This document shows, piece after piece, positions 28,949 through 60,474 of a stretch of 64,000 bases of DNA. The notes below the pieces were generated by a model. That model had not been told where the DNA came from, did no database searches, and worked only from the letters and a program-made list of their open reading frames with translations. The stretch is from Archangium sp. (GTDB lineage Bacteria > Myxococcota > Myxococcia > Myxococcales > Myxococcaceae), in assembly GCA_030695565.1 (NCBI GenBank), contig JAUYRZ010000123.1, positions 124,001 to 188,000 of the forward strand, given 5' to 3'. Positions within the stretch are counted from its first letter, which is position 1. The number at the start of each line of letters is the position of its first letter. The position numbers were made by a program, and so were the translations under genes.

Positions 28949-31120
28949 GTGTCTGCACCCGCCGATGGGATGATCAGCAGCGTCGGGACCGACCCCCGCT
29001 ACTACCTCCGTGTCTTCCTTCGGAGAAAGTGGCTGATTCTCCTCATCTTTGCAGTGTGCACGGGTGTGGCCACGCTCTACGCGACCCGGCAGCCGAAGGT
29101 TTACGCGTCGCAGATCAGCTTGATCATCGACCCCAAGGAGCCCCGGTTTCTCGACGCCCAGATTCAGGACGTCAACACCGAGGCGGGCAGCTTCTATTGG
29201 GCGAACAAGGAGTACCTGGAGACGCAGTACAAGATCATCCAAAGCCGATCGGTCTCGCAGCGCGTCGTTGAGAAGCTGGGTCTGGCGACTGACGCCGATT
29301 TCCTTGGGCTGACCCGCGTGACCGACGAGAAGCGCCGCCAGGAGATCATGGCGAAGATGGATGTGGTCGCTATCGTTCAGGCCAAGATTCGCGTGGAGCC
29401 GGTGAAGGAGAGCCGCGTCTCACTCATTAAGATCGAAGACGCCGACCCGACCCGCGCGGCGTTGCTCGCGAACGAGGTCGCTCAGGCGTACATCGACGAG
29501 ATCCTCTCGCAGAAGTTGAAGCTGACCGAGAACGCTTCGAAGTGGCTCGACGAGCGACGTGACAGCCTTTCTGACTCGGCGAGGGCGAGTGAACTGGCCC
29601 TCTACAACTACCGCAAGGGTGCCGACATGCTCTCGGCGTCGATCGATGATCGAGCGAGCATGGTCTCGCAGAAGCTGCAGGAGACGAGCAAGGCGTTGAC
29701 TGAGGTCCAACTGAAGATCGCAGGCTACAAAGCTCGCGTGACCGCCATCCGCGGGGTGCAGGCGACGCAGGGCGCCGAAGACCGGCTTTGGGCCGAAGCG
29801 CTGCCCGCCGCGCGCGAGAACCTTCTGCTCGCAAAGTACAAAGATCGGGTGATCACCCTCCGGGTGGAGTGCACCGATCTCGGCACTCGCTACCTCGACG
29901 GGCATCCCAAGTTGCTCGAGTGCCGCGAGAAGCTCGCCACTGCCGAGAAGGAGTTCGCCCGCGAGTTGTCGAACCTCGTGCTTGCCACCGAGGCCGAACT
30001 CAAGGAGGCCCAGGAGAAAGAAAAGAACCTGAAGGCGCTCTTCGACCAGGCGCGCGTCGAGGCCTTCGAGGTGGAGAAGAAGAAGCTCGAACTCGATCAG
30101 CTCAAGAGCGAGGCCGACAGCAACAAGCGCCAGTACGACGTGGTCTTCAAGCGCCTCAAGGACATCGAGCTGTCGGGCATGTTGAGGACCTCGAACGTTC
30201 GCGTGCTCGATGCGGCCAGGCCGATGATGGCGCCCATCCGGCCCAACGTTCCGCAGGGCGTGTTGATGGGTGTGATTGCAGGGCTGGTGTTGGGTCTGGG
30301 CCTGGCGATGCTGCTTGAGTTGCTCGATTCCACCGTCGCCTCGCAGGCCGATGTCGAGGAGCGCCTGGGCCTAACCTTTCTGGGCTTCCTCCCTTCGATT
30401 CCCGAAGGGGAGAAGGGGTCACGGGATCTTCACATTCACCGTGAACCGAAGTCCCTCATCGCCGAGTGCACCCGGGCGATTCGGACTAACCTCCTCTTCA
30501 TGTCGCCGGACAGGCCGTTCAAGCGGCTCCTCGTGACTTCGAGCGGCCCTCAGGAAGGCAAGTCGACCACTGCGATCAACCTCGGCATCGCGATGGCGCA
30601 GTCTGGCAACCGCGTCCTGCTCATCGACACCGACATGCGACGTCCTCGCTTGCACAAGGCGTTCGGTGTTTCGAATGAGAAGGGGGTCTCGTCTGTGGTT
30701 GTCGGCGAAGGCAAGATCGAGGACGCAATCAAGTCGACGGACATCGCGGGGCTATTCGTGATGCCATGCGGTCCTATCCCCCCGAACCCTGCCGAACTGC
30801 TTCACACGCAGGCTTTTGGAGACCTGCTCGGCAAGCTTGGCGACCGATTTGACCGCGTGATCCTCGATACGCCACCGGTCGGTGCGGTTGCGGACGCCGT
30901 CGTATTGTCGACTCAGGTCGACGGCGTCGTGGTCGTGCTGAAGGCGGGTCAGACGAACCGCGATCTCGCCAAACGCACTGTGCGCGCGCTTCAAGATGTG
31001 AAGGCGAACATCTACGGTGCGGTGCTCAACGACGTGGATCTTCAGAGCAGCAAATACGGCGACTACTACTACGGCTACGCGTACCGCTATTACGGCGAGA
31101 GCGAGAAGAAGGGCGCCTAG
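28949..31120 (+). CDS. Wzc-like polysaccharide copolymerase with BY-kinase domain
   Basis: 723 residues from a GTG start. The Wzz domain has one helix near residue 30 (WLILLIFAVCTGVATLYA), a long periplasmic coiled coil, and a second helix near 440 (VLMGVIAGLVLGLGLAMLLE). The fused tyrosine kinase has Walker A SSGPQEGKSTT near 530, Walker A' LLIDTDMRRPR and Walker B VILDTPPVG. The C-terminus is a Tyr cluster (YGDYYYGYAYRYYGES) for autophosphorylation. It controls chain length and export. The partner outer-membrane channel (Wza/OPX) is not in this window. Confidence 0.94.
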   Translation: MSAPADGMISSVGTDPRYYLRVFLRRKWLILLIFAVCTGVATLYATRQPKVYASQISLIIDPKEPRFLDAQIQDVNTEAGSFYWANKEYLETQYKIIQSRSVSQRVVEKLGLATDADFLGLTRVTDEKRRQEIMAKMDVVAIVQAKIRVEPVKESRVSLIKIEDADPTRAALLANEVAQAYIDEILSQKLKLTENASKWLDERRDSLSDSARASELALYNYRKGADMLSASIDDRASMVSQKLQETSKALTEVQLKIAGYKARVTAIRGVQATQGAEDRLWAEALPAARENLLLAKYKDRVITLRVECTDLGTRYLDGHPKLLECREKLATAEKEFARELSNLVLATEAELKEAQEKEKNLKALFDQARVEAFEVEKKKLELDQLKSEADSNKRQYDVVFKRLKDIELSGMLRTSNVRVLDAARPMMAPIRPNVPQGVLMGVIAGLVLGLGLAMLLELLDSTVASQADVEERLGLTFLGFLPSIPEGEKGSRDLHIHREPKSLIAECTRAIRTNLLFMSPDRPFKRLLVTSSGPQEGKSTTAINLGIAMAQSGNRVLLIDTDMRRPRLHKAFGVSNEKGVSSVVVGEGKIEDAIKSTDIAGLFVMPCGPIPPNPAELLHTQAFGDLLGKLGDRFDRVILDTPPVGAVADAVVLSTQVDGVVVVLKAGQTNRDLAKRTVRALQDVKANIYGAVLNDVDLQSSKYGDYYYGYAYRYYGESEKKGA

Positions 31121-31202: not shown

Positions 31203-31820
31203 ATGAGTTCGGTCGGTTTGGTTGACTACGGAATGGGAAATCTTCGTTCGGTGCGAAACGCGCTTGAGGGGCTCGGCGCGACCGTCGATGTGGTGAGGGA
31301 CCCCCTTCGCCTTGAGCGGTACGACAGAGTCGTGCTCCCAGGCGTCGGGGCTTTTGGCGACGCGATGGCCAACCTTAACCGTGCGAACTGGCCCGCGGCT
31401 CTTTCAGAGCACGCGCTCGTTCGTCAGCGCCCATTTCTCGGAATCTGCTTGGGCATGCAGCTGTTGGCCTCTCGCGGCACTGAGCACGGACTTCACGCAG
31501 GGCTTGGTTGGTTCTCTGGCGCGGTTAGGCAGCTCGAACGCCCCGCGCCCCATCGCGTGCCGCACATGGGGTGGAATGAGGTTCGGGCGGTGGTGCGAAC
31601 CGGTCTGCTTCGCGACCTGGCCGCTGATGCAACCTGCTACTTCGTGCACAGCTTCGCTTTCGTTCCCGACGATGCAGCCGTAGTGACGGGAGTGACTGAG
31701 TACGGCGGCGCCGACTTTGTCTCGGCCATCGAGCGGGGGAATGTGGTCGGCACCCAATTCCACCCTGAGAAGAGTCAGAAACATGGCGTCGGTTTGCTCG
31801 CCCGCTTCCTTCAGATGTGA
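31203..31820 (+). CDS. hisH: HisH-like glutamine amidotransferase for sugar amidination
   Basis: 205 residues from ATG 31203. Class I glutaminase: oxyanion region PGVGAFGDAM, nucleophile Cys82 (GICLGMQLL), His187 and Glu189 (FHPEKSQ). It releases ammonia from glutamine. It lies in a surface-sugar operon followed by a HisF-like and a PseA-like gene, the same trio as in Campylobacter flagellin glycosylation loci. It therefore most likely supplies ammonia for acetamidino-sugar formation, not histidine synthesis. Confidence 0.9.
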   Translation: MSSVGLVDYGMGNLRSVRNALEGLGATVDVVRDPLRLERYDRVVLPGVGAFGDAMANLNRANWPAALSEHALVRQRPFLGICLGMQLLASRGTEHGLHAGLGWFSGAVRQLERPAPHRVPHMGWNEVRAVVRTGLLRDLAADATCYFVHSFAFVPDDAAVVTGVTEYGGADFVSAIERGNVVGTQFHPEKSQKHGVGLLARFLQM

Positions 31821-31823
31821 CCC

Positions 31824-32612
31824 ATGCTTCGCACTCGCCTCATTCCAGTGTTGCTGCTTCAGAACGGACTCCTCGTCCGGAGCGAGTCGTTTGCCGTTCA
31901 TCAGGTCGTGGGAAACCCGATCCACGAGGCGAAGCGCTTCAACGAATGGAACGTCGACGAACTTATCTACCTCGACATCTCTCGTGACGGCACTTACGAC
32001 TTCCGGCGCGACGACCACAAGGTGAAGAGCCTTTCTGCCCCCATGGAGATCCTGGAAGAGGTCAGCAAGACTTGCTTCATGCCGCTCACTTGGGGAGGCC
32101 GCATCCGAAGCGTTGACGACATGCGCCAATGCTTCCTCCATGGCGCTGACAAGATCGCGATCAATTCAGGGGCGTTTCGAAACCCAGAGTTGATCACCGC
32201 TGGCGCCAAGCTCTTCGGGAGCCAGGCGATCGTCGTGTGTGTCGACGTGAAGCGCCACGCTGACGGCCGGGCGGAGGTCTTCATTGATGGAGGACGCGAG
32301 CCGACAGGCGCCGATCCTGTGGACTGGGTTAGGAGCGCGATCGACGCGGGCGCGGGGGAGGTGCTCCTTCAAAGCCTCGACCGCGACGGGACGGCACGAG
32401 GCTACGATCTCGAAATCATCCGCGCAGTGGCCAGCGTAAGCACCGTACCGGTCATCGCCTTGGGAGGCGTCGGCCGATATGAGCACTATGTGGAGGGCTT
32501 GCGTGCTGGTGCCGACGCGGTTGCCGCCGCCAACATTTTCCACTTCAAAGAGCTTTCAGATCGAAACGCGAAGAGAACCATGAACAAGGCAGGTATTACG
32601 GTGAGGCTCTGA
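31824..32612 (+). CDS. hisF: HisF-like ammonia-channel subunit lacking the cyclase Asp
   Basis: 262 residues, TIM barrel close to HisF throughout: DELIYLDISRDG, MPLTWGGRIRSVDDM, GADKIAINSGAF, LLQSLDRDGTARGYD, PVIALGGVG. The catalytic Asp11 of true HisF (CLDVKDG) is Leu11 here (PVLLLQNG), while the second Asp (Asp141, VCVDVKR) stays. It should not make imidazole glycerol phosphate. Such paralogues pair with HisH and pass ammonia to an N-acetyl sugar amidotransferase. Three nt separate it from hisH and one nt from the next gene. Confidence 0.9.
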   Translation: MLRTRLIPVLLLQNGLLVRSESFAVHQVVGNPIHEAKRFNEWNVDELIYLDISRDGTYDFRRDDHKVKSLSAPMEILEEVSKTCFMPLTWGGRIRSVDDMRQCFLHGADKIAINSGAFRNPELITAGAKLFGSQAIVVCVDVKRHADGRAEVFIDGGREPTGADPVDWVRSAIDAGAGEVLLQSLDRDGTARGYDLEIIRAVASVSTVPVIALGGVGRYEHYVEGLRAGADAVAAANIFHFKELSDRNAKRTMNKAGITVRL

Positions 32613-32613
32613 G

Positions 32614-33834
32614 ATGCCAGTCAATTACTGCAGTCGTTGTGTCTACCCTTCTGTCGCTGCGACCCCGCTAACTTTCGATGAGCGCCGCGTGTGCTCGGGT
32701 TGTCGCGCTTCGGAGCCCAAGGCGTCCATTAACTGGTCAGAACGATTTCAATGGCTCAGGGACATCGCCGACGAGTACCGATCAAACGGCAACTACGACA
32801 TCCTGATCCCGGTGAGTGGCGGAAAGGACAGTTATTATCAGACACATGTGGCTGTGCACGAGCTCGGGCTCAAGCCACTTCTGATGACGTACCACGGAAA
32901 CAATTACCTGCCCGAAGGTGAGTACAACCTGAACCGCATGCGCGAGGTCTTTGACTGCGACCACGTCATCGTGCGGCCAAGCATTTCTACGCTCGTGAAG
33001 ATGAATCGCATCGGCTTCAAACTTCAGGGCGATATGAACTGGCATGGTCACTGCGGCATCTTCACGACGCCAATTCAGGTGGCGGTCCGGTACAAAGTGC
33101 CCTTGATGATGTGGGGCGAGCACGGCTTCCTCGATCTCGGAGGCATGTACTCTTTGAACGACCTGGTTGAGTTCACCGCCAAGTTCCGACTCGAGCATGC
33201 GCTCCGCGGGTACGACTGGGACGACTTCACTGACGAAGGCCTCGAAAAGCTCGGCCGCGGCGAGTTGAAAGAAGGCCTGCGCGAGAAGGATCTCCTCTGG
33301 GCTCAGTACCCCTCGGACGATGAGATAGACGCAGTCGGCGTGCGCGGAATCTACCTCGGCAACTTCGTGAACTGGGACGCGAACCCGCAGACGAAGTTGG
33401 TGATGGAAAAATATGATTGGAAGCCTGCCGAGAAGCCTTTTGAGCGTACCTATCGACAGATGTCGAATTTGGACGACATGCACGAGAACGGAATGCACGA
33501 CTACCTCAAGTTCATCAAACTCGGGTACGGACGTGGTTCTGATCACGCGTGCAAGGACATCCGGGCCGGTCATATGACCCGAGAGCAGGGCGTGGAGATG
33601 GTGCGCAAGTACGACCACGTCAAGTCAAGCGATCTCAAGCGGTGGTTGAGCTACGTAGGAATGGCGGAGGCCGAGTTTGACGCCGTGAGCGACACGTTCC
33701 GAGATCCGCGGGTCTGGTGGATTCAGGACGGACAGTGGTGGAAGAACAACATCTGGGGCTCGTCTTCTTCGTTTGGCCCAGTGCACCTCGTTGATGCTGC
33801 GCAGGCGAAATACAAGGAAGGACGGGCTCAATGA
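32614..33834 (+). CDS. pseA: N-acetyl sugar amidotransferase (PseA/WbpG family)
   Basis: 406 residues. A zinc ribbon (Cys6, Cys9, Cys27, Cys30) precedes an adenine-nucleotide PP-loop, VSGGKDS at residues 67-73. GDMNWHGHCGIFTTPIQVA and MMWGEHGFLDLGGMYS are family blocks. The enzyme adenylates an acetamido group and replaces the leaving group with ammonia from HisH/HisF, giving an acetamidino sugar (Pse5Ac7Am in Campylobacter). Neighbouring pseI/F/G/C genes favour pseudaminic acid as substrate. Stop and next start overlap (ATGA). Confidence 0.9.
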   Translation: MPVNYCSRCVYPSVAATPLTFDERRVCSGCRASEPKASINWSERFQWLRDIADEYRSNGNYDILIPVSGGKDSYYQTHVAVHELGLKPLLMTYHGNNYLPEGEYNLNRMREVFDCDHVIVRPSISTLVKMNRIGFKLQGDMNWHGHCGIFTTPIQVAVRYKVPLMMWGEHGFLDLGGMYSLNDLVEFTAKFRLEHALRGYDWDDFTDEGLEKLGRGELKEGLREKDLLWAQYPSDDEIDAVGVRGIYLGNFVNWDANPQTKLVMEKYDWKPAEKPFERTYRQMSNLDDMHENGMHDYLKFIKLGYGRGSDHACKDIRAGHMTREQGVEMVRKYDHVKSSDLKRWLSYVGMAEAEFDAVSDTFRDPRVWWIQDGQWWKNNIWGSSSSFGPVHLVDAAQAKYKEGRAQ

Positions 33835-34850
33835 TCAAGCAACCGGAGAACGTTCAGCTCAGTGAGGAGGAGATCCGCCCAAAGGCGCTCATGGTAGAAC
33901 AGCAGCGACGCTTCGCCAACGACATTGCCCGATTGCTCAAGAGCAAAGCTTCCTTCGTCGACGTGCCTTGTCCAGCCTGCGGGAGCGATCGCAGCGCACC
34001 AGCGTGGGTGAAGTACGAGATGCAGTATCGCGGCTGCCTCGAATGCCAAACCATCTACATAAGTCCAAGGCCGCCGCCTCCAGTCCTCGATGACTACTAT
34101 CGTCACTCGGAGAACTACGCTTACTGGAACGACGTCATCTTTCCGGCGTCCGAAAGCGTACGCCGCGAGAAATTGTTCAAGCCCCGGGCTGAGCGCGTGG
34201 TCGAGATCTGCAGGCGGCACGGGGTCGCCGGCGGCACGCTGCTCGAAATAGGAGCGGGTTTTGGAACCTTCGGCGAGGAGGTCAAGAGGCTCGGCTACTT
34301 CGGTCGCTTCATCGCCGTAGAACCAACGCCACACCTCGCCGCCACCTGCCGTTCGCGAGGGCTTGACGTACTTGAATCCCCCATCGAGCATGTCTCGTTG
34401 CCCGAAGGCACCGTCGACGTGATCGCCTCATTCGAGGTCGTCGAGCACCTCTTCTCGCCGAACGAAATTCTCCACAAGGCGAGACGAATCTTGCGGCCAG
34501 GGGGATTGATGATCGTGAGCGTGCCGAGCAGCGGTGGATTCGACGTCATGCTTCTGAAGGAGAAGAGCTCGTCTGTGGATGTCGAGCACCTCAACTACTT
34601 CAACAATGCCTCCCTCGCCCGACTCTTCGAGTCTTGCGGATTCAGTACTCTGGAGGTGCTGACCCCCGGCAAGTTGGATGCTGAGCTCGTTCGCAGCAAG
34701 GTACTTTCTGGAGAGGTTTCGCTCACGAACAATGCTTTCCTCCAGACGGTATTGATCGACCGCTGGGCGGAGCTCGGTGATTCATTTCAGGAGTTCCTCG
34801 CCAAGCACCAATTGTCTTCCCATCTTTGGCTGGTCGCACAGAAAGGGTAG
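33831..34850 (+). CDS. Zinc-ribbon class I methyltransferase
   Basis: 339 residues. A zinc ribbon (VDVPCPACGSDR with RGCLECQTIYISPRP, about residues 43-80) is followed by a SAM-binding core: LLEIGAGFGTFGEEV (motif I), ASFEVVEHLFSPNEIL, RILRPGGLMIVSVPS. Paired with the amidotransferase and formyltransferase-like genes, it could N- or O-methylate the nonulosonic acid; N-methylated acetimidoyl groups are known on related sugars. Target is inference. Confidence 0.85.
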   Translation: MIKQPENVQLSEEEIRPKALMVEQQRRFANDIARLLKSKASFVDVPCPACGSDRSAPAWVKYEMQYRGCLECQTIYISPRPPPPVLDDYYRHSENYAYWNDVIFPASESVRREKLFKPRAERVVEICRRHGVAGGTLLEIGAGFGTFGEEVKRLGYFGRFIAVEPTPHLAATCRSRGLDVLESPIEHVSLPEGTVDVIASFEVVEHLFSPNEILHKARRILRPGGLMIVSVPSSGGFDVMLLKEKSSSVDVEHLNYFNNASLARLFESCGFSTLEVLTPGKLDAELVRSKVLSGEVSLTNNAFLQTVLIDRWAELGDSFQEFLAKHQLSSHLWLVAQKG

Positions 34851-34853
34851 GCC

Positions 34854-35501
34854 TTGCGGATCTCAATCGTCTGCAGCGAGGAGGGCCACCCAGTGAATCG
34901 GATGTTGGTGGCCTGGACTGCGCGTCATGCGCGGAATCACCAGACTCGAATCGTTCGCAAAGTCGCCGAACTCGACGCGGGGGAGTTGCTCTTCCTGATT
35001 TCGTGCCACGAGATCGTCCGTGCGGAGGTGCGAGCTCGCTTCGGCGCGACGCTGGTAATTCATGCGTCGGACCTTCCGGTCGGTCGGGGGTGGTCACCTC
35101 ACATTTGGCAGATACTTGAAGGTAAGAATGAGATTCCCGTCACCCTGTTGCAAGCAGAGGACGGCGTGGACAGCGGTGCGATCTGGGCGCAGACGGTCAT
35201 TCGGCTACAGGGTCACGAGATGGCTGGCGAGATCAATGAGGCCCTTTTTGCTGCGGAGTCCGAGTTGATGGATCAGGCGCTCGAGTTGGCGGCGACGCCG
35301 AGGCCTCGTGCGCAGGACTCTCGCGCACCGACCTATTACCCGAAGCGCTCTCGCACGGACAGCGAGCTCGATCCCAACAAAACGATCGCTGAGCAGTTCG
35401 ACCTCCTTCGAGTCTGCGACAACGATCGCTACCCGGCATTCTTCAGATTCAGAGGTCATTCGTACATCGTGAAGATTGAGAAAGGTTCGGATCATGAGTA
35501 G
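34854..35501 (+). CDS. Formyltransferase-family protein in the pseudaminic acid operon
   Basis: 215 residues from a TTG with AAAGGG upstream, three nt after the previous stop. The formyltransferase core is visible: LLFLISCHEIV, then TLVIHASDLPVGRGWSPHIW (compare NIHPSLLPxxRG) and LLQAEDGVDSGAIW with the catalytic Asp. The catalytic Asn of the usual N-x-H triad is Val here (VIH). I recall the HASDLPxGRGWSP form in other surface-sugar loci, so it may be a family trait. It could transfer a formyl group to an amino sugar in place of the missing PseH acetylation step. Overlaps pseI by 8 bp. Confidence 0.8.
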   Translation: MRISIVCSEEGHPVNRMLVAWTARHARNHQTRIVRKVAELDAGELLFLISCHEIVRAEVRARFGATLVIHASDLPVGRGWSPHIWQILEGKNEIPVTLLQAEDGVDSGAIWAQTVIRLQGHEMAGEINEALFAAESELMDQALELAATPRPRAQDSRAPTYYPKRSRTDSELDPNKTIAEQFDLLRVCDNDRYPAFFRFRGHSYIVKIEKGSDHE

Positions 35502-36555
35502 CGTATCATTTGAAATTGCCGGCCGGCGAGTTGGGCATGACGCCAAACCATTTGTTATTGCTGAGATGTCAGGCAATCATAATCAGTCGCTCTCTCGCGC
35601 ACTCGAGATCGTAGAGGCTGCAGCACGCGCCGGGGCCCACGGGCTCAAGCTGCAAACGTATACGCCCGACACGATGACCATCGATAAGTCGGATGGCGAC
35701 TTCGTGATCACAGATACCTCAAGCCTGTGGCACGGTCGCTCACTCCACTCATTATATCAGGAGGCACACACCCCGTGGGAGTGGCATGCCCCGTTGTTCA
35801 AGCGGGCGCGTGACTTGGGTATGGTCCCTTTTAGCACTCCGTTCGATGACTCGGCCGTCGACTTCCTCGAGTCGCTGGGTTGCGCTTGCTACAAAATTGC
35901 CTCGTTCGAGAACACTGACATTCCCCTGATTCGTAAGGTCGCCGGAACAGGCAAGCCCATGATCATCTCGACAGGTATGGCGACTGCTGCCGAGATTGAT
36001 GAGGCTGTACGAGCAGCCCGCGGCGCAGGTTGCCGAGATCTTGTGCTGCTCAAGTGCACGAGCACCTACCCGGCAGATCCGCAGAACAGCAACATCGCGA
36101 CCATCCCAAGCATCGCCCAGACTTTCGGCGTCCAGGTCGGTCTTTCTGACCACACGATGGGTGTGGGGGTAGCCGTTGCGAGCGTGGCGCTTGGCGCGAC
36201 CGTTATCGAGAAGCACTTTACTTTGCGTCGTTCTGACGGCGGCGTGGACTCCACGTTTTCGCTCGAACCAGACGAGATGGCGCTCTTGGTGACGGAGAGC
36301 GAACGCGCATGGCTTGGGATCGGGTCGGTGCGTTACGGCACTGCGGCCGAGCAGAAGTCGAAAGTCTTCCGAAGATCGCTCTACGTGACTGAAGACATCG
36401 AGGCAGGCACGGTGCTCACGTCAGCAAACTTGAGAGCGATTCGACCGGGATATGGGTTGCCACCAAAGTACTTAGACTCTGTGTTGGGACTTCGCGTCGG
36501 GCGAAGCGTCAAGAGAGGTACTCCGATGAGTTGGGAACTCCTCGCGTCCCCCTGA
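35494..36555 (+). CDS. pseI: Pseudaminic acid synthase PseI (NeuB family)
   Basis: 353 residues from ATG 35494. KPFVIAEMSGNHNQSLSRAL and AHGLKLQTYTPDTMTID are close to PseI rather than NeuB or LegI. FSTPFDDSAVDFLE, KIASFENTDIPLI and GLSDHTMGVGVAVASVALGA with IEKHFTL are the barrel's active-site strands. A SAF (antifreeze-like) domain closes the protein (about 290-350). It condenses the 6-deoxy-altrose derivative with phosphoenolpyruvate. Codons are less GC-biased (TTA, ATA) than in flanking genes. It converges on pseF with 3 bp between stops. Confidence 0.92.
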   Translation: MSSVSFEIAGRRVGHDAKPFVIAEMSGNHNQSLSRALEIVEAAARAGAHGLKLQTYTPDTMTIDKSDGDFVITDTSSLWHGRSLHSLYQEAHTPWEWHAPLFKRARDLGMVPFSTPFDDSAVDFLESLGCACYKIASFENTDIPLIRKVAGTGKPMIISTGMATAAEIDEAVRAARGAGCRDLVLLKCTSTYPADPQNSNIATIPSIAQTFGVQVGLSDHTMGVGVAVASVALGATVIEKHFTLRRSDGGVDSTFSLEPDEMALLVTESERAWLGIGSVRYGTAAEQKSKVFRRSLYVTEDIEAGTVLTSANLRAIRPGYGLPPKYLDSVLGLRVGRSVKRGTPMSWELLASP

Positions 36556-36558
36556 GGC

Positions 36559-37296
36559 TCAAGTTGGCTTCTGTTCAATGTGTCCGTTGAATTTGCGGAT
36601 GTCGGGCTGGGCGTTGGCCGCCTCGAGGACTTGCTGTAGGTCCGCGGTTTGTGCGGCTGAGCCAAGACGCTCGAAGAGCCGGACCAAGAACTGGTAGTCC
36701 TCAGGCGTGTCGAGAGTCCAACGGTGTTGGCTCTCGTCACCCGCTCCCGGAGGCAGGACGCTCTCGCAGACGAATTTGGCAGCGTTTGTGTAGATAAACC
36801 GTGTGACGTGTTCTCGGTCAGGCGCAGCAGTCGCTTCGTAGTTTGCGCGCTGCAGCGCCTCAAAGCTGAACACCTCGGTGTCGAGGCCGCGCGGAAGCCT
36901 GCGATTGAGGGTGTTCGATGCGTACTGAATGGTATCGCCGCGACCTAAGAAGTGACTGATGACCTGCGAGGAGATGGTCGGATCGAGAAGGGGGCAATCA
37001 GAAGTCACTCGAACGATGACGTCAGCGCGCGTCTCGGTGGCCGCAAAGAAGTACCTGGCCAGAACGTCGAGTTCGCTCCCTCTATAGCAGGGCACTCCAA
37101 GCCGCCTCGCCAACAGGGCGATAGGTTCGTCGTACTCAGACTCACTTGTCGCGATGACAACCTCGTCCACGCCAGTGAACTGCTGTGCTCGTCGAAGACA
37201 GCGCTCGAGTGCTGTCTTACCACCCAAATCGAGAAGGACCTTGGCTGGCAGTCTGGTGGACGAGATGCGCGCCTGAATGATTGTGACAACCCTCAT
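36559..37296 (-). CDS. pseF: CMP-nonulosonate cytidylyltransferase (PseF/SpsF-like)
   Basis: 245 residues. IIQARISSTRLPAKVL is the nucleotide-binding signature of CTP_transf_3 enzymes; VIATSESEYDEPI, DVIVRVTSDCPLLDP and TLDTPEDYQF also match SpsF-type proteins. In a pseudaminic operon the expected reaction is CTP + Pse to CMP-Pse. Its ATG overlaps the pseG stop (ATGA). Assignment as PseF rather than another cytidylyltransferase depends on context. Confidence 0.82.
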   Translation of the reverse strand: MRVVTIIQARISSTRLPAKVLLDLGGKTALERCLRRAQQFTGVDEVVIATSESEYDEPIALLARRLGVPCYRGSELDVLARYFFAATETRADVIVRVTSDCPLLDPTISSQVISHFLGRGDTIQYASNTLNRRLPRGLDTEVFSFEALQRANYEATAAPDREHVTRFIYTNAAKFVCESVLPPGAGDESQHRWTLDTPEDYQFLVRLFERLGSAAQTADLQQVLEAANAQPDIRKFNGHIEQKPT

Positions 37297-38294
37297 CGGG
37301 TGGGTCCCAGCATTGCGTCCACCACTCGACTAGCCCCCCGGCCGTCAGAGATGTGCCCCGCGGCTTCGGCCATGCGCTCAAGTTCATCCCTCAAAGAGAG
37401 CGCAGCTTTGAGCGCGTCACCCAGTTCCGCGGCCCCAAGCAGTCGTGCATCACCCACCACCCGCATAAGCCCCCGCTGGCGAACATCCTCAGCGATGAGC
37501 TTTTGGTTGTCCGCGACGACAAGTCCTATGCATGGAACCTGTAAATACGACATTTCCCAGAAGGTGGTGGATGGACTGCAGATGCAAACGCCCGCACTCG
37601 CCATAATGTCGGCTACTCCCTCTGGATCCACGAGGATTCGGAATTGTGGGCCGGGTTGAGCTTCACGGTATTCCGAAATGCGGCCGTTTGCCGCGCCAAC
37701 CAGCACCACGACGCCTTGGGCGAGCAGCGTCGGCTGCGATGTTATGGCCGCAAGCGTGAGTTTGGTCGCGTCGGCGGGGTCAGCACCGCCAAACGAGACC
37801 AAGAGCGGACCTCCGGTTCGAGTCCGTCGGGCACGCAGGATTGCACTTCGCAACAAGAGAAAATCGCTGCCCAGCAGCAGCCTCGAGTGTGCGGCCCTCC
37901 TCGCATACATGGTCTCACGCGCGTGGGCGTTCACGTTCAGTATCCAAGTAGCCGCGTACTCGCGATTTTCTCCATTGTCGTCCACGAGCAGCAACTGCAG
38001 ACCAGCGTCTTGGACGACGCGTTGGTACTCCAGCCCGAACGAATACCCGTCTGCTGCGACAAAACTGCAGCCGCTGATTCGGGCCTGGGTGATCGTCCAT
38101 TGGGCGTCGTCGGTCCCGGCTCGTTCGATGAAGGGGGCCTCCGCCCGCTCCCGTAGCCCCTTCGGTACGGCACCTCCGAAGATGACCCGCCCCCCGCGCC
38201 TTTTCCATTCCTCGGACAGGGCGAGCATGCGCATGAAATGCCCCACCCCCATTGTTGCGCTGGCGTCAGCTCGAACGAAAAGACCGTGGCTCAT
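37293..38294 (-). CDS. pseG: PseG-like UDP-sugar hydrolase
   Basis: 333 residues, GT-B fold. The N-terminus VRADASATMGVGHFMRMLAL is the PseG signature (RxDxSxxIGxGHxMR). LLVDDNGENREY and LLGSDFLLLR follow, and the C-domain has SFGGADPADATKLTL and SPSTTFWEMSYLQVPCIGLV. It removes UDP from the diamino-trideoxy-altrose intermediate, giving the PseI substrate. No acetyltransferase domain is fused to it. Confidence 0.9.
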   Translation of the reverse strand: MSHGLFVRADASATMGVGHFMRMLALSEEWKRRGGRVIFGGAVPKGLRERAEAPFIERAGTDDAQWTITQARISGCSFVAADGYSFGLEYQRVVQDAGLQLLLVDDNGENREYAATWILNVNAHARETMYARRAAHSRLLLGSDFLLLRSAILRARRTRTGGPLLVSFGGADPADATKLTLAAITSQPTLLAQGVVVLVGAANGRISEYREAQPGPQFRILVDPEGVADIMASAGVCICSPSTTFWEMSYLQVPCIGLVVADNQKLIAEDVRQRGLMRVVGDARLLGAAELGDALKAALSLRDELERMAEAAGHISDGRGASRVVDAMLGPTR

Positions 38295-38300
38295 GCGCGC

Positions 38301-39503
38301 CTATGGTGTCAGCACTTCACCGACGGCATTGACGACGCGATCGACGTCGGCGTCGGTCATGCCGGGGAACATCGGCAGGCTCAAGCAGCCGGCATAGTAG
38401 GCGTCGGCCCCGGGGAAGTTCCCCTCACTGAAGCCGGCGCGCTGATAGTCGGGCTGGGTATGCACGGGGATGTAGTGCACCTGCGGCGCGATGCCGCGCT
38501 CGCGCAATCCGTCGTAGAGCGCGCGCCGCCGTGCCGCCACGGATGACGAGGTTTCATCGGGGGCGGGCGTCAGGCGAATGACATAGAGGTGGTAGGACGA
38601 CTCGACGCCTGGTCGCGCTGCGAGCGGCTTCAGGAGCTCACGGAAGGGCGATGCACCGAACGCCTGGTTGTAGCGCTCTGCAATGGCCCGCCTCCTGGCG
38701 ACGAAGCGGTCGAGCTTCCCTGCTTGCGAGACGCCGAGAGCGCACTGAACGTCGGTCAAGCGGTAGTGATACCCCAGCGACTGTTGCTCGTAGTACCAGG
38801 GACCGTCGACCTTGGTGAGACGGGCAGGGTCCTTGGTGATGCCGTGGGTCCGCAGCTCGAGCAGCTCGCGATACGCACCTTCATCGTTGGTGAGGATCGC
38901 CCCGCCTTCCCCCGTGGTGATGTGCTTCACAGGGTGGAACGAAAGGATCGCCAGCTGTGCGTGGCGGCAGTTGCCGGCCTTGAGCCGCTCACCTTCGCGG
39001 CTCGTGTACGTCGCGCCCAGGGAGTGCGCCGCGTCTTCGATGACCATCGCGCCGACCTCATCGGCAATCGCCCTCACGCCCTCGAGATCCGCGACGCTGC
39101 CGGAGAAGTCGACCGGCACGATGACACGGGGCGGCTTCCCTGCGGCCTTGAGGTTGGCCACCACTGAACGCAGCGCGGGCAGCGAGATGTGCCCGGTGGT
39201 GGGATCGACGTCTGCGAGGGCCGGCTTACCGCCCGCGTAGCGGATGCAGTTGGCCGACGCGACGAAGGTCACGTCTGAGGTGACCCCCGTGTCGCCATCA
39301 CGAACCCCGGCCGCGAGCGCGGCGAGGTGGAGGGCCGCAGTGCCGGAAGAGACTGCGACGGCGAATCGGGCCCCGGTCAGCCCGGTGAGCGCCTCTTCGA
39401 ACTTCGCGACCATCGGGCCCTGCGTGAGCCAGTCACTTCGCAACTGCGCGGTCACCGCCGCGATGTCGTCTTCTTCGATGAGCTGTCGGCCGTAAGGAAG
39501 CAT
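38301..39503 (-). CDS. pseC: PseC-like PLP aminotransferase
   Basis: 400 residues from ATG 39503, chosen for AAAGGAG six bases upstream. MLPYGRQLIEEDDIAAVTAQ with SDWLTQGPMVAKFE is the PseC N-terminus. DegT/DnrJ/EryC1 fold: SSGTAALHLAALA, VIEDAAHSLGA, and the PLP-binding Lys in LSFHPVKHITTGEGG, again PseC-like. It transfers an amino group from glutamate to C4 of UDP-2-acetamido-2,6-dideoxy-arabino-hexos-4-ulose. More GC-rich than the pseF/G/I genes. Confidence 0.92.
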   Translation of the reverse strand: MLPYGRQLIEEDDIAAVTAQLRSDWLTQGPMVAKFEEALTGLTGARFAVAVSSGTAALHLAALAAGVRDGDTGVTSDVTFVASANCIRYAGGKPALADVDPTTGHISLPALRSVVANLKAAGKPPRVIVPVDFSGSVADLEGVRAIADEVGAMVIEDAAHSLGATYTSREGERLKAGNCRHAQLAILSFHPVKHITTGEGGAILTNDEGAYRELLELRTHGITKDPARLTKVDGPWYYEQQSLGYHYRLTDVQCALGVSQAGKLDRFVARRRAIAERYNQAFGASPFRELLKPLAARPGVESSYHLYVIRLTPAPDETSSSVAARRRALYDGLRERGIAPQVHYIPVHTQPDYQRAGFSEGNFPGADAYYAGCLSLPMFPGMTDADVDRVVNAVGEVLTP

Positions 39504-39514
39504 CGTCGCTCCTT

Positions 39515-40540
39515 TCACCATGCCCAGCGGTTCTGCTCCAGCCACGAGCGGGTCTTGCGAATGCCCTCTTCGAGCGAAGACCTCGGCTGCCAGCCGAGCA
39601 ACTCCCGGGCAAGGCTCGCGTCACAGCAGAGCTTCATAATCTCCGCTTGTGGGTGATCGTGAGGCACCTTCTCCACGCGATTGCCCGCGGTGCAGCACAG
39701 CTGGGCCAGGTCGTTGACCGAGACGTCGTGACCGGTTCCGGCGTTGATGATTCGGCCTTCTGCCTTCTCGGAGCTCGCTGCAGCGACGACGAACTCCGCG
39801 CAGTCTTCTACGTAGAGAAGATCGCGCGTTTGTTGCCCCGAGCCCTTGATCAACAAGGGGCTGCGCTCGATGTCTCGTTTGAGAAAGATCGAGACCACAC
39901 CACCCTCGGAGTTGCTCTTCTGAAACGGGCCGTACGTGTTGAAAGGACGAACGACGGTCACCGGCATCCGGTACGCGTGGAAATACGAGAGGGCGAGCAT
40001 GTCCGCCCCGATCTTCGCCGCGGCATAGGGCGAAGCCGGTCGGTACGGGTGGACCTCTCGAATGGCGGCGTCTCCTGCGAGGTCGTAGACCATGCACGTG
40101 GACATCACGGCCACCCGGGGAGCGCGGCGAACGAGCTTCGGAACGTCCCGGTCGAAGTCGAAATGTTTCGCGTCGAAGTTCAGGCCGTTGTGTTCGAAAT
40201 ACTGCCGACGACAGGCCTCCAGCACCTGAAAGGTCCCCAGCGCGTCGTTCTGAAAAGTCGGGCCCGGGTTGTCGATCGACTTCTGCACGTGGATCGAGGC
40301 CCCCAGGTGGAGCACCAGGTCCCACTGGTGGGCCTTGAACAGGGGTTGCAGCACCTCTGCGCGCGTCAGGTCGCCGTCGACCAGGCCGAGCCACCCCGGG
40401 CGGCCTTCGAACTCACGCAGGTTCTCTCGGCGACCGTTGGAGAGGTCGTCGAGTGCAAGGACCTCGTGGCCGTCTCGCAGCAGTCGCTCGACGACCCAGC
40501 GTCCGATGAAGCCAGCACCTCCAGTGACCAGGCACTTCAT
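39515..40540 (-). CDS. NAD-dependent epimerase/dehydratase between pseB and pseC
   Basis: 341 residues from ATG 40540 (ATGA overlap with pseB). Extended SDR: VTGGAGFIGRWVVE near residue 4, LDDLSNGRRENL (GalE-like NAD selectivity), HLGASIHVQKSIDNP, STCMVYDLAG and SPYAAAKIGAD (YxxxK), RPFNTYGPFQ. Resembles UDP-sugar 4-epimerases. The standard pseudaminic pathway has no such step between PseB and PseC, so it may make a separate sugar or an isomer of the intermediate. Confidence 0.85.
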   Translation of the reverse strand: MKCLVTGGAGFIGRWVVERLLRDGHEVLALDDLSNGRRENLREFEGRPGWLGLVDGDLTRAEVLQPLFKAHQWDLVLHLGASIHVQKSIDNPGPTFQNDALGTFQVLEACRRQYFEHNGLNFDAKHFDFDRDVPKLVRRAPRVAVMSTCMVYDLAGDAAIREVHPYRPASPYAAAKIGADMLALSYFHAYRMPVTVVRPFNTYGPFQKSNSEGGVVSIFLKRDIERSPLLIKGSGQQTRDLLYVEDCAEFVVAAASSEKAEGRIINAGTGHDVSVNDLAQLCCTAGNRVEKVPHDHPQAEIMKLCCDASLARELLGWQPRSSLEEGIRKTRSWLEQNRWAW

Positions 40541-41568
40541 GCGAGCGCCCCTTTCTCGAGGTACGGAGCCAGAACGCCTTCCTCGTCCAGGTACTTCACG
40601 ATCTCCTCGCGACTCATCGAGGTGTCCTTTCCGGAATGCCACTCACGCGTGACGCTCTTGCCAGACGCGAAGACCTCGCGCGTGCCGCCGTCGTACTGCT
40701 CAGCGTTCAGAGAAAGCACGACGAGCAACCGCTCGAGCTCAACCGCGCGGCTCATCTCGTCGATCGACAGCAGTTCCTCGAACAGCTTCTCACCCTGGCG
40801 GGCTCCGATGATGTCGATCTTGGGCGGGCGCGTGCTGAGCCTCGAGGCCATCGCATGAGCGAGGTCGACGACTTTCAGAGCGCGCATCTTGGTGACGAAG
40901 ACCTCTCCGCCCCGCATCAACGACCCGGCTTCCAGCACGAGGCGGGCCGCCTCGGGGATCGTCATCACGTAGCGGGTCATGCCCTCGTCGGTGAGAGACA
41001 ACGCTTCTCCGCGCAGAATCTGGCGAGCGAAGATTGGGACCACCGAGCCCCTCGAGCCAATGACGTTTCCGAAGCGCACCGATGCGAATCGAGTGCGGTG
41101 GGTGCCGCGGATCTCATTGGCTGCTGCGATGAGACGCTCTCCCATCATCTTCGAGGCGCCCATCACGTTGGTCGGGTTCACCGCCTTGTCCGACGACGTG
41201 AAGACGACCCGTTCGACGTTCGCGTCGAGCGCGGAGCGGATCACGTTGTTCAAGCCCTGGAGGTTGGTCTGCACCACCTCGAAGGGGTTGTACTCCCCCA
41301 GGCCGACGTGCTTGAGCGCCGCCGTGTGAAAGACGACGTCCACTCCGTTCATCGCGAAGCGGAGCCGATCGAGGTCGCGCACGTCACCGATGAAAGGTGA
41401 ACAGCGGGGGAGCTGCTGGTGGAGGAAGAAGAGGTCATTCTCTGAATGGTCGAGGCAACGCAGCGACTTCACCAGGGGCGTCAGCTGCTCGCAGAGCGCA
41501 CTCCCGATCGTCCCGGCAGCGCCAGTGACGAGCACGACCTTGCCCTTGAGGTATTCCCACGAGTTCAT
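40537..41568 (-). CDS. pseB: PseB/CapD-like UDP-GlcNAc 4,6-dehydratase
   Basis: 343 residues from ATG 41568, preceded by AAAGGAG. SDR of the Polysacc_synt_2 family: VVLVTGAAGTIGSAL, HTAALKHVGLGEYNPFEVVQ, FTSSDKAVNPTNVMGASKMM (catalytic Ser/Asp/Lys instead of Tyr) and RYVMTIPEAARLV. Inverting (PseB) and retaining members share these motifs; the co-operonic pseC/G/F genes argue for the inverting type. It would start the pathway from UDP-GlcNAc. Confidence 0.78.
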   Translation of the reverse strand: MNSWEYLKGKVVLVTGAAGTIGSALCEQLTPLVKSLRCLDHSENDLFFLHQQLPRCSPFIGDVRDLDRLRFAMNGVDVVFHTAALKHVGLGEYNPFEVVQTNLQGLNNVIRSALDANVERVVFTSSDKAVNPTNVMGASKMMGERLIAAANEIRGTHRTRFASVRFGNVIGSRGSVVPIFARQILRGEALSLTDEGMTRYVMTIPEAARLVLEAGSLMRGGEVFVTKMRALKVVDLAHAMASRLSTRPPKIDIIGARQGEKLFEELLSIDEMSRAVELERLLVVLSLNAEQYDGGTREVFASGKSVTREWHSGKDTSMSREEIVKYLDEEGVLAPYLEKGALA

Positions 41569-41603: not shown

Positions 41604-42668
41604 TCACCCCATACCAGTCAGGGGCCCGGTGCCTGAACCAACTTCGCGGGGCGACTCAAGCGCCTGAATCCACGCCGGGGCCAGCGCACCAACCGAGTAG
41701 TGCGTCACGGCCCGCCGCCTTCCTTCCGTCACCAGCCGCGACCTCAGCTCCGGTCCCTTCAGCAAGGCGGTCAGGCGTTCAGCCCATTCGCTCTCGGTGC
41801 GGGCCCACAAGCCGTCAAGACCGTCTCTGACGATGTCGGCGACCACCCCTACGGGGGCCACTACGAACGGGACGCCACACGCCATGTACTGGATGGCCTT
41901 GAAGCCGCACTTGCCGCGCGACCAGGCATCGTCGACGAGGGGGTACAGTCCGACATCGAGATCCTGAAAGGCGCTCACTTCGTTCTCCAGAGACCAAGCG
42001 CGGTTTTCCACCTCGACGTGTTCGAGGCGCCAGGTTCGGCCGGCGCCCACGATGCGAAGCGTGAACTCGTGCTCACGCCCCAGCTTGTCGAGGAGCGGCA
42101 AGAGGGGCTCGAGGTACTTCGCGGTGGAAGGCGAGCCGACCCAGCCGACCACAGGTTTGGTCGATTGGCGGTGATCCGCGGGTGCAAAACGATCCGTATC
42201 GACCACCGTAGGAACGATGCGGACGTGGCGGGAATGCTTGGCTGCGTATTCGGCCAGGTATTCGTTGCCGGCGAACACCAAGTCCGCTCGAGCGATCAGA
42301 TTTCCCGTGGACTCAGGCCGGGCCAGCCGGCCCCTCCATCCGCCCACTGGTAGATGGACTGCGTCGTCGAAGTCGAAGATCAGGGGCGTGCTGGACGGGA
42401 GGCCGCGTGCATACACGTTGAGCGAGAGCGGGAAGGCTTCTCGATGCACGAAGATCCTGTCTGCGCTCATCATTGCGGTGCCGAGATCCCTTGCGCGTCG
42501 TGCGACCCCTCGCGCGACCCTGACAGGCCAGCGGCTTTTTCGTTCATCAAAGAAGGTGGAGACGAGTGCTTCATGCCCGGCACGTGAAAGCGGCTCGAGA
42601 AACTGAAGCACTCGAAACCTCATGCTGGCTTCGGTGCGCGGGTTCGAGCAGAGAAAGAGCGTCTTCAT
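41604..42668 (-). CDS. Family 4-like glycosyltransferase, paralogue of 19469-20542
   Basis: 354 residues. Shared motifs with the other copy: FDFDDAVHLP, FAGNEYLAEYAAKHSRHVRI, VDTDRFAPADHRQS, GWVGSPSTAKYL and SRGKCGFKAIQYMACG. Start overlaps the stop of the 658-residue gene (ATGA). With the pse genes directly downstream, a role in adding the nonulosonic acid or the next sugar is possible, but the family fold gives no donor. Confidence 0.88.
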   Translation of the reverse strand: MKTLFLCSNPRTEASMRFRVLQFLEPLSRAGHEALVSTFFDERKSRWPVRVARGVARRARDLGTAMMSADRIFVHREAFPLSLNVYARGLPSSTPLIFDFDDAVHLPVGGWRGRLARPESTGNLIARADLVFAGNEYLAEYAAKHSRHVRIVPTVVDTDRFAPADHRQSTKPVVGWVGSPSTAKYLEPLLPLLDKLGREHEFTLRIVGAGRTWRLEHVEVENRAWSLENEVSAFQDLDVGLYPLVDDAWSRGKCGFKAIQYMACGVPFVVAPVGVVADIVRDGLDGLWARTESEWAERLTALLKGPELRSRLVTEGRRRAVTHYSVGALAPAWIQALESPREVGSGTGPLTGMG

Positions 42669-44641: not shown

Positions 44642-45927
44642 ACGCGAATGCTGGCGCGCGCTGCGAAGGCCGAAGCCCCTGAGCGGACACCTCCTCCGAT
44701 GGCTCGACTGACGATGGCGCCGGCGACGCCAATGAACGGAATGAGGAGGAGATTGCAGAGAACGTTTGTGAGGGCAGCCCCCATGGTGATCTTAGGGATC
44801 GTCTTCGTGTGATTCATGAAGAAGAGATAGTTCGAGTACGGGTAGTAGAAAGTCTCGATCACCATCACCAGACACAAGCCCGGCAGCAACCAGAGGGCAG
44901 CCCCGTACGCACTTCCGAAGACGAGCAGGACCAGGGGCGAGAAGACGAGGAGTGCTGTCGAGACGCCCAGGGCGAGGAAGAAGTAGCTGCGGACCACCGT
45001 CCGTTCGCTTTCACGAAGCGAGGCGACTCCGCGCAGGCGAAATTCTTCCCCTACTCGGGGCGAGACCGCCTCATTCCAAGCCAGGATCACCATGGTGATC
45101 GGCGCCGCCAACTGTGAGGCCAGTGAGTAGATGCCGAGCTCCTGATCAAAGCCGAAAAATTTGAGCAGCCACCGATCGCTGATGAGCAGCAGTTGGTTGG
45201 CCGCGAAGTGGGGCACGTAGGGCAGCGAGAAGATCAGCGCACGGCGGAGAATGGCTCCATCGAGAGTTCCGGGCATCGAACGAACGACGAAAACGAGGCA
45301 GACGACCGTGCTCACCAACCCAGCGATGCCGGTGGCTTCGAGCGCTCCCCGCGTTCCGCGGCCCAGAACGGCGACCAGCACGATGGCCGAGCTGAGGCTC
45401 ACTGCGAAATCGATGAGCTGGAGGATCGATGCGAGACCGGCGCGTTGAGCCGAGCGAAGCACGACCATGGGTACGCCCAGCATCAAGGCTCCCGTGGCGC
45501 CCCAGATCACGCAGCTGAGTTCGTGTCGCTGCCACAGCCCCGTGCCCGGAAGGGGAATCAGAAAGAGCGCCAGTTGGAGAGTGAGCGCAGCACCGATGGC
45601 GATCACCACGATCCAGCGGGCAACCCCACCAGCGCGTTGAGTTCCCTCCGCGGGGTTCGCTCCTTCGAAGAAGAAGCGGCTTAGACCCGACAGCAGACCC
45701 AGCGACACGAAGGTCGGCAGCGTCCCCACGAGGGTCTGCGCCAGCGCCAGGTCGCCGTACTCTGCCGGCGACAGCCGTCGAGTGTAGAGGGGGGCGAGCA
45801 CGAGGATCGCCGCACGAGAGAGGACCGTGGTCAGCGTGTAGAGCAGCGCGTTGCGACCTCCAAGCTTGGACGCGCCCGCGATACGCTCGCGTACTTTTCC
45901 CCAGAAGCGAGTGAGTGCCGCCGTCAT
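44638..45927 (-). CDS. wzx: Wzx-type oligosaccharide flippase
   Basis: 429 residues with about 12-14 membrane helices. NALLYTLTTVLSRAAILVLA with PLYTRRLSPAEYGDLALAQT is the N-terminal signature of the MATE-related polysaccharide exporters (RfbX/MurJ superfamily). It would flip undecaprenyl-linked units across the inner membrane for the Wzy-like polymerase at 26427. ATGA overlaps on both sides. Confidence 0.9.
   Translation of the reverse strand: MTAALTRFWGKVRERIAGASKLGGRNALLYTLTTVLSRAAILVLAPLYTRRLSPAEYGDLALAQTLVGTLPTFVSLGLLSGLSRFFFEGANPAEGTQRAGGVARWIVVIAIGAALTLQLALFLIPLPGTGLWQRHELSCVIWGATGALMLGVPMVVLRSAQRAGLASILQLIDFAVSLSSAIVLVAVLGRGTRGALEATGIAGLVSTVVCLVFVVRSMPGTLDGAILRRALIFSLPYVPHFAANQLLLISDRWLLKFFGFDQELGIYSLASQLAAPITMVILAWNEAVSPRVGEEFRLRGVASLRESERTVVRSYFFLALGVSTALLVFSPLVLLVFGSAYGAALWLLPGLCLVMVIETFYYPYSNYLFFMNHTKTIPKITMGAALTNVLCNLLLIPFIGVAGAIVSRAIGGGVRSGASAFAARASIRV

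Positions 45928-56091: not shown

Positions 56092-60474
<4,383 letters not shown>

Follow-up and report, generated by a model that had tools for sequence, protein, structure and literature searches.

A predicted formyl-for-acetyl switch in a pseudaminic acid locus of Archangium sp. that carries an amidination trio

Introduction

What sugar does a pseudaminic acid (Pse) pathway make when no PseH is found and a formyltransferase gene sits among the Pse genes, next to a set of amidination genes? The question is raised by positions 31203-41568 of a 64,000-nucleotide stretch of DNA from Archangium sp. (contig JAUYRZ010000123.1 of GCA_030695565.1), which is called the window below. The segment consists of two convergent gene runs. 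The plus-strand run encodes, in order, HisH, HisF, PseA (WbuX family), a methyltransferase, a formyltransferase (FT) and PseI, the six genes being separated by at most 3 bp or overlapping. The minus-strand run, read from 41568 downward, encodes a PseB-like dehydratase, an SDR protein, PseC, PseG and a cytidylyltransferase. A first-pass annotation of this DNA had listed PseB, PseC, PseG, PseI and PseF homologues together with HisH/HisF/PseA, a methyltransferase and a formyltransferase-like gene. All of these were recovered, the names PseB, PseG and PseF resting partly on context because their curated cut-offs were missed.

The answer proposed here, which as a whole we judge to have an even chance of being right, is a Pse pathway in a surface-polysaccharide locus whose acylating step has been switched and whose product would be Pse5Am7Fo. 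Pse with a formyl group at C7 and a Pse formyltransferase are already known; the new part is the natural formyl/acetyl swap.

Results

A formyltransferase in the PseH slot

FT (34854-35501, plus strand; TTG start codon) matches PF00551 at 45.5, above the cut-off of 26.1, and is a predicted sugar N-formyltransferase in place of PseH. A scan of 84,980 species for relatives gave 128 confirmed, of which the best 80 were kept, and a search of the window's phylum (matches at E ≤ 1e-15 in 3 of 195 genomes, that of the window included) added two more to make 82 FT loci. Three pairs of FT proteins are identical (L007/L046, L021/L022 and L086/L088), leaving 80 distinct FTs with that of the window included. 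His70 and Asp106 are invariant in 83 of 83 sequences, and 80 of them have Val two positions ahead of the His. The AlphaFold model of FT (pLDDT 96.5, pTM 0.91) has as its best solved match 1zgh (Z 21.9, root-mean-square deviation 3.0, 206 residues; Foldseek TM 0.80), a solved transformylase fold deposited as Met-tRNA formyltransferase, which also has Val at the Asn position of the motif. The predicted structure thus combines a formyltransferase fold with conserved His and Asp residues, as expected of a PseJ-type enzyme. PseJ itself matches only weakly in sequence (22 bits, E about 0.001, residues 28-117) and was not among the best 50 matches listed in either fold comparison of the model. A plasmid search with FT turned up only distant formyltransferases among its 49 records (20 listed), all below 60% identity. 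FT would most likely be an N10-formyl-tetrahydrofolate-dependent enzyme that acylates the C4 amine of the UDP-sugar, which becomes C7 of the product. The first-pass suggestion that the C7 nitrogen may be formylated is supported in this respect, as is the absence of PseH; C7 formylation in itself is not novel.

PseH was looked for in several ways. TIGR03585, the PseH profile, gave zero matches at E ≤ 0.001 in a search of the whole genome; the same search of 14 control genomes gave some match in 13 and a match above the cut-off in 1. No open reading frame (ORF) of at least 60 residues in the window matched a GNAT profile at E ≤ 0.001. When the GNAT domain of the sister clusters described below was used as query, it matched in 6 of 6 sister genomes, whereas the genome of the window gave no match. 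PF13302, a general acetyltransferase domain, has four matches in the genome, none of them inside the window, and none of the 17 proteins from HisH through AsnB has an acetyltransferase domain. The classical Pse5Ac7Ac pathway calls for PseH in the genome, and neither TIGR03585 nor the sister GNAT query found one.

Across the 82 loci, FT has PseG directly before it and PseI directly after it in 58, only PseG in 4, only PseI in 4 and neither in 16; several of these loci have shortened stretches, which limits the neighbour counts. In those 58 loci FT occupies the usual PseH slot, between PseG and PseI. For 50 of the 82 loci whole-genome PseH searches were submitted and 48 genomes were searched, giving PseH above the cut-off in one genome and some TIGR03585 match at E ≤ 0.001 in 40, that one included. 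The cut-off is a weak test, since the sister GNAT scores just 43.9 bits with TIGR03585. The one genome with PseH above the cut-off carries two Pse runs, PseG-PseH-PseI (L089) and PseG-FT-PseI (L059). An even sample was taken from 398 genomes of the phylum of the Gammaproteobacterium behind L079. PseI was above the cut-off in 61, and all 61 loci were taken. FT was present in 5 and GNAT, by a profile broader than PseH, in 37, and no locus had both (0 of 5 versus 37 of 56; Fisher p 0.007).

A second formyltransferase family, FT2, closely resembles 1zgh (the L070 copy scores 229 bits). It was found only alongside a PIG-L deacetylase (PF02585, 72.8 bits), in 7 of 7 cases in the even sample and 6 of 6 in the FT loci. 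PIG-L without FT2 was seen in none of the sample loci and in five of the FT loci. In the even sample FT2 accompanies GNAT in five of seven loci, a pairing to be expected if FT2 serves N5, and FT in the remaining two. Loci with both FT2 and PIG-L are L038, L068, L070, L077, L082, L087, L165, L166, L167, L171, L176, L201, L212 and L233. The pair is probably an N5 deacetylation-formylation module: in the simplest reading PIG-L would free N5 for formylation by FT2, and FT or PseH would act on the amine that PseC introduces (N7). Within the window the PIG-L profile has zero matches and the FT2 profile matches FT alone, weakly (52.7 bits versus 313 for the FT profile). Action of FT at N5 was considered and rejected, the window having no PIG-L and 71 of the 82 FT loci having neither PIG-L nor FT2. 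This pattern suggests a readable code in which a GNAT or FT in the PseG-PseI slot denotes acylation of N7 and PIG-L plus FT2 denotes acylation of N5.

Sister clusters carry a PseI-GNAT fusion

Six genomes of the window's family have an orthologue of the SDR protein (a Pal homologue, see below), and in 6 of 6 PseI and GNAT lie in one reading frame; the window has no such fusion, and FT is absent from the sister loci. Four of these loci (L228-L231) were compared gene by gene. In L228, L229 and L230 the order is PseB-Pal-PseC-PseG, then the PseI-GNAT gene, then PseF, and L231 has the same order from Pal onward, where its contig ends. HisH-HisF-PseA face the Pse genes convergently in L229, L230 and L231. 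L228 has its Pse genes with a different, distant trio and a methyltransferase 30% identical to that of the window; both are excluded from the following figures. Identities between window and sisters are 74-75% for PseB, 80-83% for Pal, 77-79% for PseC, 63-64% for HisH, 77-81% for HisF, 87-88% for PseA, 70% for the methyltransferase, 54-57% for PseF, 39-43% for PseG and 48-49% for PseI. A control pair of acetyl-type sisters, L229 versus L231, gave 79% for Pal, 77% for PseC, 50% for PseG, 70% for PseI (fusion length), 65% for PseF, 64% for HisH, 83% for HisF and 91% for PseA. By this comparison the clear exchange is that of PseI; the PseG and PseF values lie only slightly beyond the control. Replacement of PseG as well was rejected, since the control sisters are themselves just 50% identical in PseG.

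In a tree of 143 PseI proteins that of the window groups with two FT-linked PseI proteins of Bradyrhizobium (L009/L010; support 0.935), and the four PseI-GNAT fusions form a clade of their own (support 0.998). The best FT matches are at the same two Bradyrhizobium loci (58-60%). We conclude that an FT-PseI cassette appears to have replaced the PseI-GNAT fusion still kept by the relatives. We infer the direction of the swap from the PseI tree. An assembly chimera was rejected: FT-PseI lies inside a 227 kb contig and is flanked by the methyltransferase and PseF, both of which have sister orthologues. The cluster is patchy, since no PseI was found at E ≤ 1e-90 in five searched genomes of the window's own genus.

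Core pathway genes and the first step

The Pse core divides by curated cut-offs. PseI, a pseudaminic acid synthase of the FT-linked lineage (35494-36555, plus strand; TIGR03586, 488 against 340), and the PseC aminotransferase (38301-39518, minus strand; TIGR03588, 461 against 423.5) lie above theirs. Below theirs lie the PseF-like cytidylyltransferase (36559-37296, minus strand; PF02348, 97.8 bits; TIGR03584, 20.3 bits against 205.7), the PseG-like UDP-sugar hydrolase (37293-38294, minus strand; TIGR03590, 136.3 bits against 153.55) and the PseB/Pen-like UDP-GlcNAc dehydratase (40537-41568, minus strand; PF02719, 313.6 bits). On TIGR03589 the dehydratase scores 273.6 against a cut-off of 407.75, compared with 532 for the PseB of another FT locus, L165. 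Its best match in the PDB is 6bwc (232 bits), which we take to be Pen, followed by 2gn4, a UDP-GlcNAc C6 dehydratase (218.5).

Between PseC and PseB lies the SDR protein (39515-40540, minus strand), left unnamed by the first-pass annotation. Among solved proteins it is closest to Pal (6bwl, 340.6 bits, with the runner-up at 158), and its gene adjoins that of the Pen/PseB-like dehydratase. Because the SDR protein is a Pal homologue, the first step is probably the Pen/Pal route, with this protein as the probable second enzyme. A search of the 82 FT loci and the 61 sample loci turned up nothing Pal-like above 156 bits. A dead PseB, considered because Met replaces the Tyr of its Y-x-x-x-K motif, was rejected, as the sister clusters have the same motif; Met at this position is known in enzymes of the WbpM/PglF type.

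The amidination trio and the methyltransferase

The trio opens with a HisH-like glutaminase (31203-31820, plus strand; TIGR01855, 226 bits). The second protein (31824-32612, plus strand) is a HisF-like ammonia-channelling partner of the WbuZ/HisF2 type rather than the housekeeping HisF. It misses both the WbuZ and the AglZ/HisF2 equivalog cut-offs (251 bits against 299.7 with TIGR03572, and 221 against 310). The third is a sugar amidotransferase of the PseA/WbuX family (32614-33834, plus strand), which exceeds its cut-off (TIGR03573, 295 bits against 203). The genome has its own hisF on another contig (C10, 324 bits), and an assignment of HisH and HisF as histidine genes was rejected on that ground: a WbuX-family PseA is accompanied here by HisH and by a HisF paralogue distinct from the one for histidine synthesis. 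The methyltransferase (33831-34850, plus strand; PF13489) has a Cys-rich N-terminal stretch and is a candidate N-methyltransferase of the amidine.

PseA of the window belongs to a clade (support 1.0) with those of L229, L230, L231, L236, L028, L079, L145 and L146. Within the clade FT is found in the window, L028 and L079, and the PseI-GNAT fusion in L229, L230 and L231; L145, L146 and L236 have no FT within the stretch examined. PseA proteins like that of the window, at 460 bits or more, occur in 3 of the 398 genomes of the L079 phylum. Seven of the nine loci of the clade have the methyltransferase; the two in which it was not seen are L231 and L145. It shares a locus with the trio in L028, L057, L059, L079, L146, L229, L230 and L236, and in L057 and L059 the trio is of another PseA clade. 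By gene content, the trio and methyltransferase are a tailoring set, usually travelling together, that is found on both sides of the predicted change in N7 acylation. In L028 FT-PseI-HisH-HisF-PseA form one run on one strand. L146 combines a NeuB-like synthase with a window-like HisF-PseA and methyltransferase, and no FT.

Variants of these genes were seen in several loci. Three members of the window-like clade encode HisF and PseA as a single fused ORF (L079, 11271-13328; L145, 604-3021; L146, 9021-11102). A copy of the Pse-associated methylase TIGR03587 lies between HisF and PseA in L229 (14800-15414, minus strand; 255 bits) and in L231 (4404-5021, plus strand; 249 bits). No copy was found in the window, and its own methyltransferase does not match TIGR03587 at E ≤ 0.001. 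In genome G250, the source of L145 and L161, a window-like HisF-PseA lies on contig C9 and a separate PseI locus on contig C1. The first 267 or so bases of the two contigs are 92% alike and encode an end of PseB. After that end one contig has PseI preceded by a long ORF that holds parts of PseF, PseG and GNAT, and the other has HisH and HisF-PseA.

Surrounding genes

Polysaccharide genes flank both runs. They encode a WecA/MraY-type initiating transferase (22600-24108), a Wzy-like protein with TPRs (26304-28898), a Wzz/tyrosine-kinase protein (28949-31120) and a Wzx-like flippase (44638-45927), and glycosyltransferase genes also surround the Pse runs. The destination of the sugar is for this reason most likely a surface polysaccharide. 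Other genes nearby include a 658-residue ORF without a Pfam or NCBIfam match (42665-44641, minus strand), between a glycosyltransferase and the flippase, and, in the polysaccharide run, a gene for a PhyH-type dioxygenase (46651-47469, minus strand). Another PhyH-type gene lies directly 3' of the methyltransferase in L057 (12916-13755, plus strand). Farther on are a Fic/DOC-family protein with a winged helix (53151-54320, plus strand), directly after a UDP-glucose dehydrogenase-like gene, and a 1460-residue protein with NAD-binding reductase, AMP-binding, carrier and acyltransferase domains (56092-60474, plus strand).

Discussion

In the proposed pathway the PseB/Pen-like dehydratase and Pal, followed by PseC, would yield UDP-4-amino-4,6-dideoxy-L-AltNAc. 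FT would then formylate the C4 amine with N10-formyl-tetrahydrofolate in place of acetylation by PseH. PseG would strip UDP, PseI would add phosphoenolpyruvate and PseF would activate the product to CMP-Pse5Ac7Fo. HisH, HisF and PseA would convert one amide to an amidine, most likely the N5-acetyl, giving Pse5Am7Fo, and the adjacent methyltransferase probably N-methylates that amidine. The locus would have arisen by entry of FT-PseI as a cassette that displaced the PseI-GNAT fusion. The sequences themselves show the gene content, the failure to find PseH, the orthology and the different acylating gene, whereas every substrate, the course of the swap, the place of the amidine and the methylation are deduced from them. 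The N5-acetyl is modestly favoured as the amidinated group because the trio is little changed and its PseA clade occurs with both acyl types; on this view the N5-acetyl itself is unchanged by the swap. The computed residue masses are 302.111 for Pse5Ac7Fo, 301.127 with one amidine and 315.143 with an amidine and an N-methyl group. The last form has the same formula as acetamidino-Pse, so that mass spectrometry alone would call it Pse5Ac7Am.

Several observations weigh against this proposal. The motif in FT is V-x-H, and the canonical formyltransferase motif is N-x-H. PseJ is only a distant match. Exclusion between FT and GNAT is incomplete, as the broad GNAT profile marks a gene somewhere in 22 of the 82 FT loci, in 3 of them (L038, L074 and L087) next to PseG; if only GNAT genes directly beside PseG are counted, the contrast in the even sample becomes 0 of 5 versus 25 of 56 (p 0.07). 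Two of the five FT loci in that sample also have FT2 and PIG-L. PseG evolves fast, with 50% identity between two acetyl-type sisters, and its divergence tells us little. An N5-specific PseA and a tolerant one that works on N7 would look alike in the genomes, and the target of the trio could be a different sugar of the polysaccharide.

The alternative that survives best, unlikely in our judgement, is that FT formylates N7 and the trio amidinates that very formyl group, giving Pse with a C7 formimidoyl or possibly N-methylformimidoyl group. Amidination of the formyl group was the first-pass proposal. It is consistent with the naming of C. jejuni PseA as a CMP-Pse5Ac7Am synthase, acting at N7 (PMC13317340). 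In L079 a PIG-L deacetylase that could remove the N5-acetyl shares the locus with FT and the trio. Moreover, an N-methylformimidoyl group has the formula of acetimidoyl (residue 315.143) and could be overlooked by mass. The genes speak against it, since PseA, HisF and the methyltransferase are kept across the formyl/acetyl difference and PseA is 87-88% identical to sisters that bear a GNAT, in a clade with both acyl types. In addition, a table of the review PMC3958885 gives Pse5Am7Ac (N5) for C. jejuni. The literature searched, with most subscription journals lying outside it, yielded no nonulosonic acid that has a formimidoyl group or both formyl and amidine, and we do not claim that such sugars are unpublished. 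The first-pass idea of amidination, possibly with N-methylation, retains its footing in the single gene run that holds trio and methyltransferase, and the formyl group as its target is not supported. The two papers disagree on the nitrogen amidinated by PseA, N5 in the table of PMC3958885 and N7 in PMC13317340. The same amidination genes in formylating and acetylating clusters form a natural pair that makes the target nitrogen of PseA testable.

It is rather improbable that the trio and methyltransferase act on another sugar of the same polysaccharide and leave plain Pse5Ac7Fo. In favour of this reading, a trio is found in 22 of the 82 FT loci, in 20 of which PseA falls outside the window's clade; L228, of the same family, has Pse genes with a different, distant trio, and L146 pairs a window-like HisF-PseA and methyltransferase with a NeuB-type synthase. 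Against it, the window has the trio, the methyltransferase, FT and PseI closely packed in a single run, in L028 FT, PseI and the trio lie in one single-strand run, and in L229, L230 and L231 the trio is convergent to the Pse genes. Least probable by far is an FT that is inactive or of other function, with N7 acetylated by an acetyltransferase of unrecognised family: the Val in place of the usual Asn and the common sub-cut-off TIGR03585 matches (40 of 48 FT genomes, with the sister GNAT itself at 43.9 bits) could be so read, but all 83 sequences keep the His and the Asp, the Val is a family feature shared with the transformylase fold of 1zgh, the sister-type GNAT is not in the genome by a search whose positive control worked, and the 17 proteins from HisH to AsnB are free of acetyltransferase domains.

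Beyond the preferred Pse5Am7Fo, the boldest extension would be an undescribed nonulosonic acid, a Pse with a formyl-derived group and an amidine, at its furthest 7-(N-methylformimidoyl)-Pse, together with FT-PseI cassettes as mobile acyl-switching modules moving between bacteria. We consider this combination unlikely.

Formyl groups on nonulosonic acids and Pse loci short of PseH have precedents. Pse5Ac7Fo is described in Pseudoalteromonas distincta (PMC3210612) and 5-hydroxybutyryl-7-formyl-Pse on the pilin of P. aeruginosa 1244 (PMC6222762). The N7 formyl is shared with the predicted sugar, and no amidine is mentioned on theirs in the available portions of these two papers. A formylated legionaminic acid accompanies a predicted formyltransferase gene in Halorubrum (PMC6137143), and the Geobacillus flagellin islands reported in 2016 have Pse genes without PseH, one type (III) with a formyltransferase gene (PMC5109656). 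The tailoring of a nonulosonic acid by an amidotransferase and a methyltransferase is shared with Campylobacter PtmG/PtmH and Legionella ORF 8, which make an N-methylated acetimidoyl legionaminic acid, PtmG/PtmH acting at N5 (PMC13317340, PMC3766260). Their sugar, as given in these sources, is legionaminic acid with an N7 acetyl.

Among enzymes, PseJ (solved as 6ci2 and 6ci4) is the formyltransferase named for the Pse pathway and is of the same superfamily as FT by sequence, though only 22 bits alike. PseJ reportedly formylates the UDP-sugar. The first step resembles that of Bacillus thuringiensis, an organism of another phylum, where Pen and Pal are said to make UDP-4-keto-6-deoxy-L-AltNAc in two steps; the window's SDR protein matches Pal at 341 bits and its PseB-like protein matches 6bwc at 232.

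The closest comparison is with the pse locus of C. jejuni, which we take to contain PseH. There the acylated position carries acetyl, whereas the window has FT, a Pal homologue and an extra methyltransferase. Both loci share the Pse pathway and a PseA-family amidotransferase (PMC4690887, PMC13317340), and the acetamidino-Pse of C. jejuni requires pseA (PMC4690887). A Campylobacter phage protein recognises acetamidino-Pse and has no action on a pseA mutant (PMC4690887); the groups carried by Pse can thus decide what binds the cell. Beside these systems, the sugar of the window may be a new variant of the known Pse sugars.

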